IMG/VR virus record: IMGVR_UViG_3300030108_001743
Location: 1-34,790 of that record
DNA from: a virus
Length of the DNA: 34,790 nucleotides
Strand: one strand, 5' to 3'
The translations under genes were made by a program, and so were the position numbers. A model generated the notes under the pieces. That model was not told the DNA's origin, did not search any database, and worked only from the letters and a program-made list of their open reading frames with translations. This document shows positions 201 to 34,632 of the stretch, one piece after another. Position 1 is the stretch's first letter, and the number at the start of each line of letters is the position of its first letter.

Positions 201-229
201 TTGACATTGTTATACAAGTACGCTACCAT
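201..229 (+). promoter_or_regulatory. Promoter P1, early rightward genes
   Basis: TTGACA at 201-206, 17-bp spacer, TACCAT at 224-229. The predicted start, 7 nt after the -10 box, is position 236, which is the A of an ATG opening a 7-codon frame (236-259, M-S-T-N-K-E-R-stop) just ahead of the gene at 263. The spacer begins TTGTTATACAA, a near-palindrome shared with the promoter at 745 and almost with that at 1763, and may be an operator. Confidence 0.75.
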
Positions 230-262
230 GTACACATGTCAACAAACAAGGAAAGGTAAGGA

Positions 263-520
263 ATGACAACAACGAAACTACTGCAAGACATGGTAGACAA
301 AGGAGAGTCTTTCGGATTCTCTTATGCTTGCAAAGAGTGTCACGCACAGGGAGCTAGTGGGATTATATCTTGGCAACCCGAACGCAACACTGTTAAGCAC
401 TTTGCAAAGTTAGCAGAAGAGCAATACAAGCTCTACAACAAAGAATTTGAGTGTGACACCGAAGGGTGTAACTCATCATCAGCTTGGTTTGCTATTAACG
501 GCGAGAGTGAATGGCGATGA
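263..520 (+). CDS. Small zinc-binding protein, function unknown
   Basis: 85 residues. Two Cys pairs, CKEC near residues 23-26 and CDTEGC near 64-69, look like the two halves of a zinc ribbon, with a predicted alpha/beta stretch between them. No catalytic motif was recognised. The ATG follows an AAGGAAAGGTAAGG purine tract that serves as ribosome binding site. It is the first gene after promoter P1 and its stop overlaps the next start (ATGA), so it is translated with the 41-residue zinc protein after it. A role as an early takeover protein or transcription accessory factor is only inferred from position. Confidence 0.75.
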   Translation: MTTTKLLQDMVDKGESFGFSYACKECHAQGASGIISWQPERNTVKHFAKLAEEQYKLYNKEFECDTEGCNSSSAWFAINGESEWR

Positions 521-642
521 CAGAAGAAGAATGCAACACCTGTGGTGATACAGGAAGATGGGAATCAACATTTGAAGAAGCCCCTACTGTCCTAGTTTAT
601 TTAGGTCCATGTCCTGACTGTCAAAGGAAAGAACAATGTTAA
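517..642 (+). CDS. 41-residue zinc-ribbon microprotein
   Basis: 41 residues. Two Cys pairs (CNTCGDTG near residue 6 and CPDC near residue 32) form a compact treble-clef or ribbon zinc site; the first resembles half of a DnaJ-type CxxCxGxG module. ATGA overlap with the gene before it, and its last codons overlap the ATG of the membrane peptide after it, so the three genes look translationally coupled. Function unknown. Confidence 0.65.
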   Translation: MTEEECNTCGDTGRWESTFEEAPTVLVYLGPCPDCQRKEQC

Positions 643-743
643 ACGGATTGCACCCAGTAAGTGCAATACAACTGATCTTCTTTACCTACCTGTTTTTATT
701 TACAATGAAAATGTGGCTAGAAGAAGAAAATGTAGAAATATAA
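636..743 (+). CDS. 35-residue single-span membrane peptide
   Basis: 35 residues. A hydrophobic stretch at about residues 9-24 (AIQLIFFTYLFLFTM) is followed by a Lys and an acidic tail, consistent with one membrane span. The start lies inside the end of the preceding frame with AAGGAAAG upstream, and the stop TAA sits just before the -35 box of promoter P2. Small early membrane peptides in phages often alter membrane function or block superinfection, but nothing here points to a specific job. Confidence 0.55.
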   Translation: MLNGLHPVSAIQLIFFTYLFLFTMKMWLEEENVEI

Positions 744-744
744 C

Positions 745-773
745 TTGACATTGTTATACAAATGTGTTAAGTT
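745..773 (+). promoter_or_regulatory. Promoter P2
   Basis: TTGACA at 745-750, 17-bp spacer, TAAGTT at 768-773. The first 17 bases (TTGACATTGTTATACAA) are identical to those of P1. The predicted start near 780 begins the leader GTCAACAAA, which also follows P1 and P4. Here the triplet preceding TCAAC is CTG rather than ATG, so this is the copy without a leaderless start. Confidence 0.75.
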
Positions 774-805
774 AAAACTGTCAACAAATAAAGAAAGAGG
801 TTCCA

Positions 806-1162
806 ATGGAACAATTATTAAAAGCGCTAGCAGATTTGCTAGCACCATATTTACCAAAACCAAATATAAGCGATATAGAAACTGCTTTTCTCGAAGGCCT
901 TAATAAAGAAATTGATAGGGCAATAGAGAAAGAGTTAACTGATCTAGATATTAGTACTGAAGTATTGAATGAGTTAGAAAACTATGACTTTGATGATGCC
1001 ATAGCAAATTATTTAGATTATAACAATTATCAACCAGCAGATGAATTTGTAGACGAAAGAATTTGCACAGAAATTGCTAAGAATGCAGTTACCGAATACA
1101 TTGATGAATCCCTCAGAGATGAAATCAAAGATGTACTACGAAACGTGACTTTTGATGTGTAA
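806..1162 (+). CDS. Acidic helical protein, function unknown
   Basis: 118 residues, strongly acidic and rich in Asp, Glu, Asn and Tyr; almost certainly mostly helical, with no Cys and no recognised motif. The ATG follows AAAGAAAGAGG. It is the only sizeable gene between P2 and the terminator at 1252, so it is probably a monocistronic early gene. Acidic early proteins sometimes mimic DNA or bind host regulators; that is speculation here. Confidence 0.7.
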   Translation: MEQLLKALADLLAPYLPKPNISDIETAFLEGLNKEIDRAIEKELTDLDISTEVLNELENYDFDDAIANYLDYNNYQPADEFVDERICTEIAKNAVTEYIDESLRDEIKDVLRNVTFDV

Positions 1163-1165
1163 CGA

Positions 1166-1222
1166 ATGGCGTACATATTATTTGCTGTATTCCTAATATA
1201 CATATCAATCAAATTCACTTAG
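1166..1222 (+). CDS. Possible 18-residue hydrophobic peptide
   Basis: An 18-codon frame three bases after the preceding stop encodes a peptide that is almost entirely a short membrane span (AYILFAVFLIYISI) with a Lys near the end. There is no strong ribosome binding site, so translation would depend on coupling. It may be chance. Confidence 0.25.
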   Translation: MAYILFAVFLIYISIKFT

Positions 1223-1251
1223 GAAAGGCCATTCCTGTACAACAACCTAAC

Positions 1252-1279
1252 GAAAGCCCCGCCAACCGGCGGGGCTTTC
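1252..1279 (+). terminator. Terminator after the acidic early gene
   Basis: A perfect 12-bp stem (1252-1263 with 1268-1279) with an AACC loop. The A and T runs lie inside the stem ends and there is no separate T tract. It closes the P2 transcript. Confidence 0.75.
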
Positions 1280-1290
1280 ACTATCTTCGG

Positions 1291-1312
1291 GCTCCTCAAG
1301 CGCCGGAGGGGC
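1291..1312. repeat. GCTCCTC hairpin repeat, copy 1
   Basis: A 22-nt hairpin (GCTCCTC paired with GAGGGGC through one G-T pair, 8-nt loop). The same 22 bases recur at 33815-33836 with one change, in the loop. Both copies follow a TTCACTATC element. The 312-nt gap 1223-1534 consists mainly of such elements: this hairpin, the GC hairpin at 1319, the repeat at 1345 and the hairpin at 1422. Confidence 0.65.
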
Positions 1313-1318
1313 TAATTA

Positions 1319-1338
1319 GCGGATGCGCCTACGGCGCA
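1319..1338. repeat. GC hairpin repeat, copy 2
   Basis: Second copy of the element at 60-79 (18 of 20 bases alike), keeping the TGCGCC/GGCGCA stem with loop TAC instead of TTC. Confidence 0.6.
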
Positions 1339-1344
1339 ATTTTA

Positions 1345-1370
1345 TTCACTATGAACGCCGTATAATCCGA
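1345..1370 (+). repeat. TTCACTATGAACG-N7-ATCCGA repeat, copy B
   Basis: Second of three copies. The variable spacer here makes a perfect TATAAT (1361-1366), but no matching -35 box lies 16-18 bp upstream and the other copies read TGCAAT and TGTGAT at that place, so I do not call it a promoter. Confidence 0.65.
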
Positions 1371-1410
1371 CTTAACGATACCTATAGGCGAATTAACTTT
1401 ACCTGTAAGC

Positions 1411-1445
1411 AAAACGAAAAACCCCCCCGATAGGAAACGGGGGGG
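1411..1445. terminator. Possible leftward terminator hairpin
   Basis: An 8-bp stem CCCCCCCG/CGGGGGGG (1422-1429, 1438-1445) is flanked on the left by an A-rich tract (1411-1421), which reads as a U-rich tail on the minus strand. No leftward gene was found to its right, so it may insulate WhiB from antisense transcription or be part of the WhiB leader. Confidence 0.4.
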
Positions 1446-1534
1446 CTTGTGTCAACAAAATTCGGAGGAGGAAACCTCTTTACTAAAGATACAGGGTCCA
1501 TGGGACAAAAGCAAATGTAGTGTATTGTTTTTTT

Positions 1535-1756
1535 ATGTCGTGGTTGGAGAGGGCGAATTGTCGTGGGCTTGGCCATGATTTGTTTTATAGCGACAGCGTG
1601 AACAGGGCGAGAAACGTATGCGATAATTGTGATGTTGTTCATGAGTGTTTGCAGGCTAGTTTTGTTGAGGAACCGATAGATCAGATATGGGGTATTCGGG
1701 GTGGGCTTACTCCGAAAGAGCGTCAGCGGTTTCGTATGATAAATAAAATTTATTGA
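1535..1756 (+). CDS. whiB: WhiB-family [4Fe-4S] transcription regulator
   Basis: 73 residues from this ATG; an upstream in-frame GTG at 1520 would add five. The Wbl pattern is complete: a first Cys (in RANC), then C-x2-C-x5-C (VCDNCDVVHEC) as cluster ligands, the turn WGIRGG, and a basic C-terminal tail (KERQRFR) for DNA contact. Wbl proteins bind the primary sigma factor of Actinobacteria, and phage copies can repress host whiB genes and block superinfection. There is no obvious ribosome binding site before the ATG. A TATTGT at 1523-1528 lies 7 nt upstream, which would allow a leaderless transcript, but its -35 match is weak. This gene is the best single pointer to an actinobacterial host. 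Confidence 0.9.
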   Translation: MSWLERANCRGLGHDLFYSDSVNRARNVCDNCDVVHECLQASFVEEPIDQIWGIRGGLTPKERQRFRMINKIY

Positions 1757-1762
1757 ATTGAC

Positions 1763-1791
1763 TTGACATTGTGATACAGCGGGTATAACAT
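1763..1791 (+). promoter_or_regulatory. Promoter P3, main rightward operon
   Basis: TTGACA at 1763-1768, 17-bp spacer, TAACAT at 1786-1791. Predicted start 1798, exactly the A of the ATG of the 53-residue membrane protein, so the transcript would be leaderless. The spacer begins TTGTGATACA, one base from P1 and P2. It probably drives all genes to 6427, since no terminator was seen before then. Confidence 0.75.
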
Positions 1792-1797
1792 TATCAC

Positions 1798-1959
1798 ATG
1801 AGTTTAATCCCAGTAGTTACCACAGCGATAGCATTTGCGTTTGGTTTTGTCACACACAGATGCTACACTTGGTATAACAAGAACTACCGTAGGGATTTAC
1901 GGACTCTTAAACAGTATCAAAAGATACGCAGTCAACAAAGGAGAAATAATGAACATTAA
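1798..1959 (+). CDS. 53-residue membrane microprotein, leaderless
   Basis: A short hydrophobic segment at residues 2-19 (SLIPVVTTAIAFAFGFV) is followed by a strongly basic tail (RR, KR and RR pairs), typical of a one-span protein with its C-terminus in the cytoplasm. The ATG falls exactly on the predicted start of P3 and there is no ribosome binding site, so initiation on a leaderless mRNA is likely. The last codons overlap the next gene by 11 nt, and the ribosome binding site of that gene lies within this frame. Function unknown. Confidence 0.55.
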   Translation: MSLIPVVTTAIAFAFGFVTHRCYTWYNKNYRRDLRTLKQYQKIRSQQRRNNEH

Positions 1960-2149
1960 ATTTAATGTTGCTATTGAAATAGATGACGAATACATAGCGC
2001 ATGAGTATTTAGAAGGCTACGAGCCTACTGTTGGTGAAATCATCAAAGATGCTCTGGAAGCAATATGGACATCTCATAGATTCGGTACGAGCATGACAGC
2101 TACAGACGTTCGCATTGACGAATACGATTCGGAACAGGAGAAAAAATGA
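1949..2149 (+). CDS. Small acidic protein, function unknown
   Basis: 66 residues. I chose the ATG at 1949 because AAAGGAGAAATA lies directly upstream; the frame stays open further left, but that part overlaps the leaderless 53-residue gene in another frame. The region before it, GTCAACAAAGGAG, resembles the leader after P1, P2 and P4. The sequence shows beta-strand-like N-terminal residues (IKFNVAIEI), a helix and an acidic end. ATGA overlap with the next gene. Confidence 0.7.
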   Translation: MNIKFNVAIEIDDEYIAHEYLEGYEPTVGEIIKDALEAIWTSHRFGTSMTATDVRIDEYDSEQEKK

Positions 2150-4598: not shown

Positions 4599-4750
4599 TG
4601 TGGGAGGACTTCGGTCAGAAGAAATCTAAACTCAGGAACAAATCACCGTACTACATAAGCTGTACTTGCGGTTGGGTCATCGGCTCAAAAGTAATAGAAA
4701 ACAACAACAACAAATGCCCTACATGTGGGCAGAAACATCAGGAGAAATAA
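4598..4750 (+). CDS. 50-residue zinc-ribbon protein
   Basis: Starts at a GTG that overlaps the SSB stop (TAGTG). Residues 22-24 (C-T-C-G) and 40-43 (C-P-T-C-G) form a classic zinc ribbon; the N-terminus is basic (QKKSKLRNK). The stop lies two bases before the next ATG, so the frame fills the gap exactly. It may bind nucleic acid with the SSB/annealase set. Function unknown. Confidence 0.65.
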   Translation: MWEDFGQKKSKLRNKSPYYISCTCGWVIGSKVIENNNNKCPTCGQKHQEK

Positions 4751-4752
4751 CG

Positions 4753-4953
4753 ATGGAAGCACCAGAAACCCCTACTAGGGACAAAAACGATCAGTTGATT
4801 GCCATGAGGATACCGCAAACTTTGTTAAACCAAGTTGACCAGTTAGCGATACACAACGGCCAGACTAGATCAGGTATGATACGAGATGCGTTAAACGCAT
4901 ACACGGAAAAACATTACGGACCAATAGCAGACGATATAAACGATCTGTTGTGA
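4753..4953 (+). CDS. Ribbon-helix-helix (CopG/Arc-like) DNA-binding protein
   Basis: 66 residues from this ATG, which has GGAG 9 nt upstream; the frame stays open further left, but that part overlaps the zinc-ribbon gene. Residues about 14-53 (LIAMRIPQTLLNQVDQL...GQTRSGMIRDALNAYTEKH) form a complete RHH domain: a strand with M-R-I, a first helix, the GQTRS turn, and a second helix. RHH proteins dimerise and repress promoters through the strand, so it could act on the repeated TTGACA promoters. The next start overlaps its stop. Confidence 0.8.
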   Translation: MEAPETPTRDKNDQLIAMRIPQTLLNQVDQLAIHNGQTRSGMIRDALNAYTEKHYGPIADDINDLL

Positions 4954-5853: not shown

Positions 5854-6427
5854 CACGATTTTATTTACGTTCGCTATCAACGCACTGTCAGCTACAGCTC
5901 TAGCTTACATACCTTGGGACAAAATAGAAGAACACATATTAGCTACTGAATACGACTGGTTAGAGGACAGCGGAAGGGTGCGTATGTTGCAGTACTGGTT
6001 AAGCATAGACACAGACGGCATTTACGGTGAGATTACGCATAAGCATCATCGTCAGTGGGCTATGGAACGTAACATTTCTGTGCGTTTATACTCAACTGTT
6101 TCTCCTGATGCTACTTTTAGGCCGGAGGTTGAACGGTGGCGTAGCACGGTTGAAAGCGCAATACTAGCCAACGGTGGGCCTCTTAGCGATACCGCTAGGT
6201 TCTTGAAAATTATAGATTGTGAATCTGGTGGTGATCCTACAGCGAGGTCTAGTGTTAGTACAGCTAGTGGTTTGATGCAACACTTGACAACGTATTGGGA
6301 TGCTAGAAGTCGTACTGCTTTGGGTTATGTAGCAGATGTTTTAGATGGAGAAAGTAATATAAAAGTTTCTGCTTGGCTTATTTATAGGGCTACGGGCGGT
6401 GGTTGGCGACACTGGGTATGTAGCTAG
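5831..6427 (+). CDS. Secreted lytic transglycosylase with PG-binding domain
   Basis: 198 residues. A signal peptide or signal anchor fills residues 1-25 (KIFIYSTILFTFAINALSATALA). Residues about 47-77 (GRVRMLQYWLSIDTDG...EITHKHHRQW) are a PG_binding_1-like repeat. Residues about 122-155 carry the transglycosylase core: catalytic Glu131 in CESGGDP and the GLMQ motif (147-150). It cuts peptidoglycan and reaches the wall through the host Sec pathway, so it may not need a holin. It is the last gene of the rightward block, far from the VanY endolysin of the leftward block. Confidence 0.8.
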   Translation: MRKIFIYSTILFTFAINALSATALAYIPWDKIEEHILATEYDWLEDSGRVRMLQYWLSIDTDGIYGEITHKHHRQWAMERNISVRLYSTVSPDATFRPEVERWRSTVESAILANGGPLSDTARFLKIIDCESGGDPTARSSVSTASGLMQHLTTYWDARSRTALGYVADVLDGESNIKVSAWLIYRATGGGWRHWVCS

Positions 6428-6428
6428 T

Positions 6429-6611
6429 CTATTCGTCTTTCCAGTCGATCCACACGCCTATGAAATGGCATAAAGCGCTAGCTGCCGTTATCCAGATACC
6501 GTACTCTCTTGTCTCTCCTGACAACGTAATCAACACAATACCTGTAGAACCAGCAGTAAGGCTAAGTATGAAAACTTCTCTGGTTAGTCTTTTAAGTTTA
6601 CGCTTTATCAT
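6429..6611 (-). CDS. Small two-span membrane protein, holin candidate
   Basis: 60 residues from the ATG at 6611, which has AGGAGAAAC directly upstream; the frame is open 8 codons further. Basic N-terminus (KRKLKRLTRE), a hydrophobic segment at about 11-29, a short polar turn (SGETREYG) and a second at about 37-53, ending WKDE. Size and topology fit a class II holin, and it lies beside a transglycosylase gene, though on the other strand. Its stop is one base from the stop of that gene. Another small membrane role cannot be excluded. Confidence 0.55.
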   Translation of the reverse strand: MIKRKLKRLTREVFILSLTAGSTGIVLITLSGETREYGIWITAASALCHFIGVWIDWKDE

Positions 6612-8133
6612 TGTTTCTCCTGATTGTTGGGCCACTGGGAGAAACAGCCGATGGACTGCTAGGTCTTGGAGGGGTTGGAGTTGTAGGTCTTGGAGTTGGT
6701 GGTGGCGGTGTAGGTCTAGTAACCGCTACTGTAGCTATTGTAGCAGTCGCTGTCGTCACCGCAATAATACTCCGCCTTTCGTCAACGGATATTGTTGAAT
6801 CTTCTGGCACATAATCCTCAAAGCCACCAGCGTACACGTTAATTTCAGCCTCAAGTTCATCTTTTACTTCATCAGAAGCCTCGTTAAATAGCTCTGGTGC
6901 TGACTCAAAGATAACAGTTATCTGCTCATCTGAGGCATCTTCAAAAAAATCAGGATTATCCTCTAGAACTTCTTCCAAAAAGATCTCAACAGTTTCCTCA
7001 TCTTGTAGTATTTCAGCAATAATTTCGTCGTCAAGCTCATCAGCGTCTAACTCCTCAAAGTCTATTTCTTCAATGTCCTCATACTCTTCAAGAACAAACT
7101 CTTCTTCTAGTTCCACATCTGATTGTACTTCATCTGGCTGTGCCTGTTCTCCATCATCAAAGAAAGTTGTTTCTTCTTCCTCCTCTGCCTCAATTTCTTC
7201 TGGAACAAACTCAATTTCTGGTAACTCATCTAGCTCAAACTCTTCCCATTCTATATCGTCGAAGTTCCACATGATATCATCTTCTAATGGCAATTCTTCT
7301 AATTCCTCTATGTCTATTGTCACTGGTGGCGGTGGGTTTTCTTCAACTGGTAATGGAGGAGCTGGCGCTGGGGGTAGCGATGGCTGTACTGTGGGGGGTT
7401 CCAACGGCGGGTCTGGTTCTGGCTCTTCTTCTGGTTCTTCTGGGAGAGGGGTTGGATCTTGAATAGGCTCATCTACGGGAGGCTCAACTTCCTCTTCAGG
7501 CGTAGGAGATTCTTCAGGAGTAGGGTCTGGCTGAGGCGTAGGCTCTACAGGCTCAGGCGTAGGCTGAGGAGTTGCTTCGGGCGTAGGTTCTGGTTCTGGA
7601 GTCGCTTCAGGATCAGGCGCAGGCTCAGAGTCATTAATCAAAGACCAGACACCGCCAGATAACTCCATCGTATACGTTCCAATATAATCAGTGTCGAAAG
7701 CATCAGCTTTCAGTTGGTAACTTCCGATGTCTAACGTAGGCGTAAGTTGGCTGTCCCAACACATGTTACTGCCATCATTATGCGGAGCAGAATCATCGTC
7801 ATCTGCGATCAAGGTTAAGATTTCTTCGCTGTCAACACTGTACAACCAAATGTGGGGATCAGCAGCATATTCGTGAGGTGCATAATTCCAATCGTCGCAG
7901 GTCATAGACGTAAACGTGATTGCATTAATGGGAGTTTGATCTTCTGTTATTTCTAATGCAAACATAGGACCGTTGTCAAATTCGTTGACCCAAACAGTGC
8001 AACGTAACAAGTCTTCTTCTTCTACACAAGTGGTTTCAGGTTCATTTTCTTGAGCTGACACAGGACTAATTATTGCCATGACAAACATAGAAGCTAACAA
8101 TATGCGTGACAAAACAAAGAAAAAGCGAGCCAT
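6598..8133 (-). CDS. Exported protein, PPC-like domain and D/E/P-rich stalk
   Basis: 511 residues from the ATG at 8133. Signal peptide 1-27 (FFFVLSRILLASMFVMAII...VSA). Residues about 28-165 hold four Cys and a pattern like the pre-peptidase C-terminal (PPC) domain: WLYSVDSEEILTLIADDDDS, CWDSQLTPTLDIGSYQL, GTYTMELSG. Then about 120 residues of Pro/Glu/Thr repeats (PEPTPE type), about 150 very acidic residues, and a C-terminal part with a possible membrane span (IIAVTTATATIATVAV) and a Pro/Thr-rich basic end. PPC domains are known from secreted bacterial proteins. It overlaps the holin candidate by 14 nt. Role unknown: cell-surface modification, superinfection exclusion or virion adhesion are possible. 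Confidence 0.7.
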   Translation of the reverse strand: MARFFFVLSRILLASMFVMAIISPVSAQENEPETTCVEEEDLLRCTVWVNEFDNGPMFALEITEDQTPINAITFTSMTCDDWNYAPHEYAADPHIWLYSVDSEEILTLIADDDDSAPHNDGSNMCWDSQLTPTLDIGSYQLKADAFDTDYIGTYTMELSGGVWSLINDSEPAPDPEATPEPEPTPEATPQPTPEPVEPTPQPDPTPEESPTPEEEVEPPVDEPIQDPTPLPEEPEEEPEPDPPLEPPTVQPSLPPAPAPPLPVEENPPPPVTIDIEELEELPLEDDIMWNFDDIEWEEFELDELPEIEFVPEEIEAEEEEETTFFDDGEQAQPDEVQSDVELEEEFVLEEYEDIEEIDFEELDADELDDEIIAEILQDEETVEIFLEEVLEDNPDFFEDASDEQITVIFESAPELFNEASDEVKDELEAEINVYAGGFEDYVPEDSTISVDERRSIIAVTTATATIATVAVTRPTPPPPTPRPTTPTPPRPSSPSAVSPSGPTIRRNNDKA

Positions 8134-34018: not shown

Positions 34019-34047
34019 TTGAAATGTATAACGTCATACGCTACAAT
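34019..34047 (+). promoter_or_regulatory. Promoter P4
   Basis: TTGAAA at 34019-34024, 17-bp spacer, TACAAT at 34042-34047. Predicted start 34054 is the A of an in-frame ATG, and ATGTCAAC at that point is identical to the start after P1. Confidence 0.75.
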
Positions 34048-34053
34048 CTAGAT

Positions 34054-34632
34054 ATGTCAACGAAACAACAAAAGGAAGAAATTATGACAGCCGATGAAAC
34101 TGATTCATATTACAACCCAACCGACAGAACTTACATCAACGATGTGATAGACCTAGCCGAAGAAGCTATGTTTCATATCCTTGATGAAATGTCAGACAGC
34201 TTTGACAGCCTAGAAGATTTGCAAAACTGGTGGATCACTGAGGACTACCCAAACGGCGGACATGTTGACCTGTGGGAATTTATCAGCGGACAAGCAGACC
34301 GGAGTCATTATGTATTTACCAACTGGCAAGCCGTCAAAGTAGTTACAGAGTGGTCAAACAATCCAGACGCATACGCAGATTACGGCATTCACCTAAGCGA
34401 AAAATATATTAAGGATAACGGCGGAAACCCTTTACACGTTGTAGCCGTACAGATGGCATATTATTCAATGATGGCAGATATCGCCGATCAGATTAACCAC
34501 ACTCTAGACCTTAAAAACGGTCAAGCAAAAACAGCCGACAGAATGAAAATCTACAACGACTGGGAAAAAAGTAGAAAAGAAACTTTCTCAGTCGGTCTTA
34601 TGTGGAAGCTAGCAAATGAAGGAAAAATCTAG
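34054..34632 (+). CDS. Acidic protein, function unknown (possible early gene)
   Basis: 192 residues from the ATG at 34054, which lies on the predicted transcription start of P4 (leaderless); an in-frame ATG at 34084 with AAAGGAAG upstream would give 182. An ATG at 34024 lies inside the promoter and is unlikely. Acidic, helical, rich in Tyr, Trp and Asp: DVIDLAEEAMFHILDEMSDSFDSLEDLQNWW, NPLHVVAVQMAYYSMMADIADQINHTL, YNDWEKSRKETFSVGLMWKL. No motif recognised. It is alone between P4 and a strong terminator. By promoter type it is probably expressed with the other early genes and may act on the host. Confidence 0.75.
   Translation: MSTKQQKEEIMTADETDSYYNPTDRTYINDVIDLAEEAMFHILDEMSDSFDSLEDLQNWWITEDYPNGGHVDLWEFISGQADRSHYVFTNWQAVKVVTEWSNNPDAYADYGIHLSEKYIKDNGGNPLHVVAVQMAYYSMMADIADQINHTLDLKNGQAKTADRMKIYNDWEKSRKETFSVGLMWKLANEGKI

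Follow-up and report, generated by a model that had tools for sequence, protein, structure and literature searches.

The DNA analysed here (the window) is the complete IMG/VR record IMGVR_UViG_3300030108_001743, 34,790 nt in length. At several of its rightward promoters an ATG stands where transcription is predicted to start, which raises the question whether one leaderless promoter block has been copied to several early genes, as an earlier note on this DNA had proposed, or whether the repeated element serves another kind of common control. The record belongs to a tailed phage whose minus strand encodes terminase, capsid and tail fibre, together with a protein of 2068 aa that may be the tape measure, and whose plus strand carries the early genes. 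The WhiB-family gene (Pfam Whib match, 8e-13) points to an actinobacterial host. No near relative was found among cultured phages, and the proteins scanned included no recognisable integrase.

Promoters, operator-like site and leader tag

All four promoters of the earlier note were confirmed, each with a 17-bp spacer (Table 1). The ATGs at 236, 1798 and 34054 also lie at the predicted transcription starts of P1, P3 and P4, each 6 nt past the -10 box. P2 had been described as having the same leader with CTG, and CTG is indeed found at 778, but the leader stands 2 nt closer to the -10 box than in P1 and P4. That the block has been copied is supported by the shared 17-mer CTTGACATTGTKATACA, present in exactly three copies in the window against 0.25 expected, with no more sites at up to three mismatches, and by further copies of the module in the relatives L009/L039 (in L009 at 186, 536 and 1188), L015/L097 (in L097 at 4779 and 3586), L138 and L025. 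Possible chance matches aside, the complete module is restricted to this lineage.

Table 1. Positions of promoters, leaders, genes and the candidate small RNA in the window
Feature	Position	Strand	Description
Promoter P1	201-229	+	TTGACA-17-TACCAT; operator-like GTTATACA at 209-216 in spacer
P1 mRNA leader	236-262	+	Tag (AT)GTCAACAAA, with GTCAACAAA at 238-246; Shine-Dalgarno
P1 gene	263-520	+	85 aa; no family match
Promoter P2	745-773	+	TTGACA-17-TAAGTT; operator-like GTTATACA at 753-760
P2 mRNA leader	778-805	+	Tag (CT)GTCAACAAA at 780-788; Shine-Dalgarno
P2 gene	806-1162	+	118 aa; no family match
Candidate antisense small RNA	1417-1479	-	About 63 nt; 5' hairpin GAGG-CCUC, seed CUCCGAAUUUUGUUGACACAAG, intrinsic terminator (stem 1448-1419)
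Seed UUUGUUGACA	1450-1459	-	Exact reverse complement of P1/P2 leader tag UGUCAACAAA; P4 via one G-U pair
Small-RNA promoter, predicted	1486-1514	-	TTGCTT (1514-1509), 17 nt, TATCTT (1491-1486); geometry kept in relatives
whiB-family gene	1535-1756	+	73 aa; TATTGT (1523-1528), 6 nt, ATG; likely leaderless
Promoter P3	1763-1791	+	TTGACA-17-TAACAT; operator-like GTGATACA at 1771-1778
P3 gene	1798-1959	+	53 aa, hydrophobic N-terminal segment; no Shine-Dalgarno; likely leaderless
Leader tag GTCAACAAA and Shine-Dalgarno of next gene	1931-1948	+	Promoterless
Gene 1949	1949-2149	+	66 aa; predicted small-RNA target
Promoter P4	34019-34047	+	TTGAAA-17-TACAAT; reversed operator core TGTATAAC at 34025-34032
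P4 leader	34054-34083	+	ATGTCAACGAAACAACAAAAGGAAGAAATT; 30/30 identical in L015, CDS diverged
P4 gene	34084-34632	+	182 aa; alternative in-frame start 34054

An operator-like 8-mer sits inside the spacer of each promoter, as GTTATACA in P1 and P2, as the variant GTGATACA in P3 and as the reverse complement TGTATAAC in P4, the spacer of which has no TTGTKATACA and carries the core of that sequence in reverse. The reverse form is also present in the P3 promoter of L009. That the 8-mer is retained whichever way it points suggests that a protein binds it and that it was not simply inherited, and GTTATACA is probably an operator; phage proteins that come into view in this connection are WhiB and a CopG/ribbon-helix-helix protein encoded at 4666-4953. 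Two further sequences were noticed outside the modules. Approximately 50 bp upstream of P1, at 134-147, lies a perfect palindrome, CGAAC-N4-GTTCG (CGAACATGCGTTCG), which in sequence resembles the actinobacterial LexA/SOS box. In addition, TTCACTAT occurs six times (111, 1277, 1345, 33803, 33940 and 34692), where 1.3 copies are expected. All six lie between transcription units, three of them as TTCACTATGAAC and the others close to terminators; the sequence is possibly a cassette boundary or a regulatory repeat.

Downstream of the promoter, P1, P2 and P4 have in common a 5' leader, (N)GTCAACRAA, which is followed by a Shine-Dalgarno sequence and then by the ATGs at 263, 806 and 34084. With six copies of GTCAACRAA in the window against 0.9 expected, the leader repeat exceeds chance. 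One copy, at 1931, precedes gene 1949; another, on the plus strand at 1451, is leader-like with a Shine-Dalgarno sequence, and has neither an ATG nor a gene behind it. Both had been overlooked in the earlier note, as had whiB at 1535 with the same -10-to-ATG geometry. Throughout the sequences of the lineage GTCAACRAA lies, with few exceptions, either 13-28 nt ahead of a start codon or inside the RNA locus discussed below. In the modules of the window and its relatives it is always followed by a Shine-Dalgarno sequence, and the two bases before it are AT, CT, CA, TA or CC, which in the relatives usually make no ATG. The ATGTCAAC of the earlier note is this leader tag, which by chance contains ATG in two window modules. 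Tagged genes are mutually unrelated, and these early slots look like places for exchangeable accessory genes; in the relative L015 a tagged cassette slot (5898-6809) is occupied by an ArdC-type anti-restriction gene (ArdcN, 4e-25). The leader itself is probably a target site.

We make no claim for GTCAACAAA as a general start motif of phages. An IMG/VR scan for -35, -10 and tag returned at least 120 stretches, many of them near-identical copies from single lineages, versus 73 for a composition-matched control word. Many other viral contigs (L016-L135) do have a -10 box, 6 nt and GTCAACAAA, for example the AACTAG-GTCAACAAACAAAACAATG group, which is one lineage in many copies.

A candidate antisense RNA next to whiB

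The antisense copy of the tag lies in a locus adjoining whiB. Its minus strand reads TTGCTT-17-TATCTT, 6 nt, AGAGGUUUCCUCCUCCGAAUUUUGUUGACACAAG and a C7/G7 terminator with UUUUU; a promoter of its own, with a weak -35 (TTGCTT), and an intrinsic terminator are thus predicted, as for a trans-acting antisense RNA. Within the candidate RNA the single-stranded seed UUUUGUUGACA is complementary to the leader and the adjacent CCUCC to the Shine-Dalgarno sequence. Folding of all variants gave the 5' hairpin, an open seed (78-86% unpaired) complementary to the leader and Shine-Dalgarno region of the putative targets, and the terminator; shortened forms of the RNA gave z values of -3.7 and -3.9.

An IMG/VR scan recovered the RNA element in nine contigs besides the window, all of this lineage. 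The independent comparison is essentially one of two clades. The small-RNA promoter of the L009 clade reads TTGTCA-17-TACACT, and tag and seed are matched between the two clades while the spacer of this promoter is randomised (5/17 identical to the window; 2/7 for the 7 nt past the -10 box). Also kept are the -10-to-GAGG distance, the 5' hairpin, CCTCCTCCGAA, TTTGTTGAC and the terminator. A search of the window against Rfam gave no match to any RNA family, that of the P1 c4 RNA included, and the bacterial genomes searched for the element yielded two chance-like matches, with no prophage and no host. A more distant clade, at 52% identity, lacks both tag and seed and has a hairpin at the same place: in L225, L227, L228 and L229 it is terminator-like, lies just upstream of whiB and has a CU-rich loop, UUUCCUUCCUUCUUUU, complementary to the GA-rich leaders of that clade, both sequences being of low complexity. 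This only suggestive likeness might reflect an analogous RNA whose seed has changed.

At least nine contiguous Watson-Crick pairs with the RNA seed of the same sequence were found at 2-3 gene starts in each of five sequences; shuffled seeds gave a mean of 0.03-0.12 starts and reached the observed value in a fraction of 0-0.011. In the window these are the starts at 263, 806 and 1949; the start at 34084 pairs through one G-U. In the promoter-proximal mRNAs the pairing starts at the predicted 5' end, and the Shine-Dalgarno sequence is within reach of CCUCC. Predicted duplex energy alone fails to set the tagged starts apart (gene 18696 on the minus strand outscores P1), because CCUCC pairs with any Shine-Dalgarno sequence. 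Pairing energy was dropped as a target predictor, being too unspecific, and the argument therefore relies on the contiguous match of the seed, on where it lies and on its conservation.

The match of tag and seed could in part be inherited from a leader duplicated in reverse. In a rival reading the tag is only a leader that favours ribosome binding and was spread as cassettes duplicated, and the minus-strand element is a terminator beside a decayed reverse copy, without any regulatory role. The modules clearly duplicate, the plus strand at 1451 has the leader-like form described above, the duplex energies are unexceptional and tag-like words follow promoters in unrelated viral contigs too. We nevertheless consider this unlikely, given that tag and seed are identical between clades in which the neighbouring sequence is randomised, that the minus-strand -10-to-hairpin spacing is conserved and that there is no minus-strand gene at this place in need of a terminator.

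Leaderless starts and the proposed control of the early genes

The proposal of a leaderless block copied to several genes stands for P3, to which whiB can be added, and is not supported for P1, P2 and P4. At P3 and whiB the start codon is located at the predicted +1, 6 nt past the -10 box and without a Shine-Dalgarno sequence, and this is kept in relatives. The -10-to-ATG distance, for which the earlier note had suggested a comparison with related phages, was retained for P3: the 6-nt gap, ATGAGTTTRATCCC and the protein start are found in L009-L011 despite a different spacer and -10 box. For whiB the window has TATTGT-6-ATG, L009 TATTCT-6-GTG, L225 TAGTAT-6-ATG and L227-L229 TATAGT-6-ATG, so the geometry of both genes is preserved across clades. 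Judged from these sequences, the mRNAs of P3 and whiB, and of these two neighbouring genes only, are likely leaderless. This is an ordinary actinobacterial feature and not remarkable alone, since leaderless mRNAs are known in Actinobacteria and their phages.

The functional starts of P1, P2 and P4, in contrast, are preceded by a leader and a Shine-Dalgarno sequence. ATG 236 opens only MSTNKER-stop, the P1 coding sequence with its Shine-Dalgarno sequence beginning at 263, and ATG 34054 is in frame with ATG 34084, which has a Shine-Dalgarno sequence of its own. A leaderless block serving P1, P3 and P4, with translation from 236, 1798 and 34054, has in its favour the ATG at +1 in all three, the finding that RTG at the 5' end suffices for translation in mycobacteria (Shell 2015, PMC4633059) and the preservation of the P4 ATG and its frame in L015. 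It is made quite improbable by the seven codons that are all ATG 236 yields, by the Shine-Dalgarno sequences and ATGs further on, by the paralogous modules, in which GTCAAC is kept and the ATG usually is not, and by the P4 leader, unchanged beside a diverged coding sequence as expected of an RNA element. We therefore rejected leaderless translation for P1, P2 and P4; the ATG of P1 and P4 appears to be an accident of the two bases preceding the conserved GTCAAC. The AUG could still be usable by an actinobacterial ribosome if the transcripts start exactly at the A, in which case P1 would yield a peptide of 7 aa and the P4 protein would be longer by 10 aa. A single inverted-repeat operator formed by TTGACA and TGTCAA around the promoter, with the tag as a DNA-binding site, fits the reverse complementarity of the two words in P1 and P2 and was rejected as highly implausible, because the tag stays constant while the -35 changes (to TTGAAA, TTGCAA, TTGATT or TTGCAT) and stands at 1931 without a promoter.

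The reading that we favour, with a probability of roughly 0.6, is that the early genes are controlled through a common operator and by a single trans-acting antisense RNA resembling c4, and that the leaderless P3 and whiB escape the RNA. It builds on the cassette, the tags, the seed-tag complementarity, the promoter and terminator signals and their conservation, all of which can be read from the sequences. Separately transcribed early genes would be governed together, by way of a cassette common to them that consists of sigma-70-type promoter, operator-like 8-mer in the spacer, GTCAACRAA leader, Shine-Dalgarno sequence and start codon. We infer that a protein acts at the operator and that the minus-strand RNA of about 63 nt is transcribed; its seed UUUUGUUGACA would then lie on the tag and CCUCC on the Shine-Dalgarno sequence. 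Bound to the 5' end of the tagged mRNAs, it would most likely repress them by blocking ribosome entry or translation, with mRNA decay as a possible alternative effect, whereas the tagless starts of whiB and P3 would escape. Its role may lie in the lytic cycle, as early shut-off, or in the silence (immunity) of a prophage. If this is right, a single RNA and a copy-paste leader tag would provide regulon-wide shut-off or prophage silence, and newly acquired genes would come under control simply by landing behind the cassette.

Comparison with known systems

Cluster A mycobacteriophages use one short repeated regulatory sequence, the stoperator, genome-wide. The phage studied here has a short repeated, probably regulatory sequence as well, but its operator-like site is inside the promoter spacers, and L5-type stoperator sites (GGTGGMTGTCAAG-like) were absent from the window at up to two mismatches. 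P3 and whiB correspond to the leaderless mRNAs of mycobacteria (PMC4633059) in having the start codon at the predicted +1 and no Shine-Dalgarno sequence; they are new only in their phage context, and P1, P2 and P4 are leadered.

The c4 RNA of phages P1 and P7 (Citron and Schuster 1990, reviewed in PMC12197685) is described as a short phage RNA complementary to leader sequences next to a Shine-Dalgarno sequence in the phage's own mRNA, the expression of which it blocks. It acts within one operon of an enterobacterial phage, whereas in this actinobacterial phage the targets would be several unrelated genes that have promoters of their own and carry copies of the tag.

The closest architecture is that of the cluster K mycobacteriophages, in which a 13-bp start tag, the start-associated sequence (SAS, or SAS/ESAS), stands before many early genes. 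About half of the SAS sites follow a promoter with an overlapping inverted repeat (Pope 2011, PMC3203893; PMC11373665). There, too, a leader tag is repeated, and subcluster K1 has one reversed copy in a hairpin loop. The cluster K tag, GGGATAGGAGCCC, is different, and no homologous sequence is shared with the lineage of the window, where a single site with two mismatches (0.27 expected) is no real match to the SAS and the window is not counted among SAS-bearing genomes. Cluster K may offer an independent parallel. The reversed SAS was found in a hairpin loop in Adephagia and Angelica; in Mycobacterium phage Adephagia (L230:38651-38701; JF704105, ~58650-58700) it is single and lies in the loop of a conserved hairpin. 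This hairpin is situated between genes 92 and 93, at the reported start of late transcription (PMC11373665, PMC3203893). The region is present in 161 phage records, and the hairpin is kept in the nine relatives examined, with 93.5% of cells paired versus 36-45% when slid, and not in Pixie and ShedlockHolmes. Three pairs showed two-sided changes, a covariation not beyond that of shuffles (80/500), and approximately 10% of random windows from that GC-rich arm fold as stably.

We infer from this arrangement that the reversed SAS may act as an antisense RNA on the SAS regulon. Tentatively, and with the balance still against it, start-tag regulons with a single antisense RNA might be a recurrent scheme of actinobacterial phages that arose at least twice, in this lineage and in cluster K. 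If so, unrelated early genes would gain a copied promoter-operator-leader cassette and one complementary RNA would shut off the set, which would explain the purpose of start-associated sequences. The comparison bears on the role of the SAS in cluster K mycobacteriophages, a question standing since 2011, and cluster K phages are culturable.
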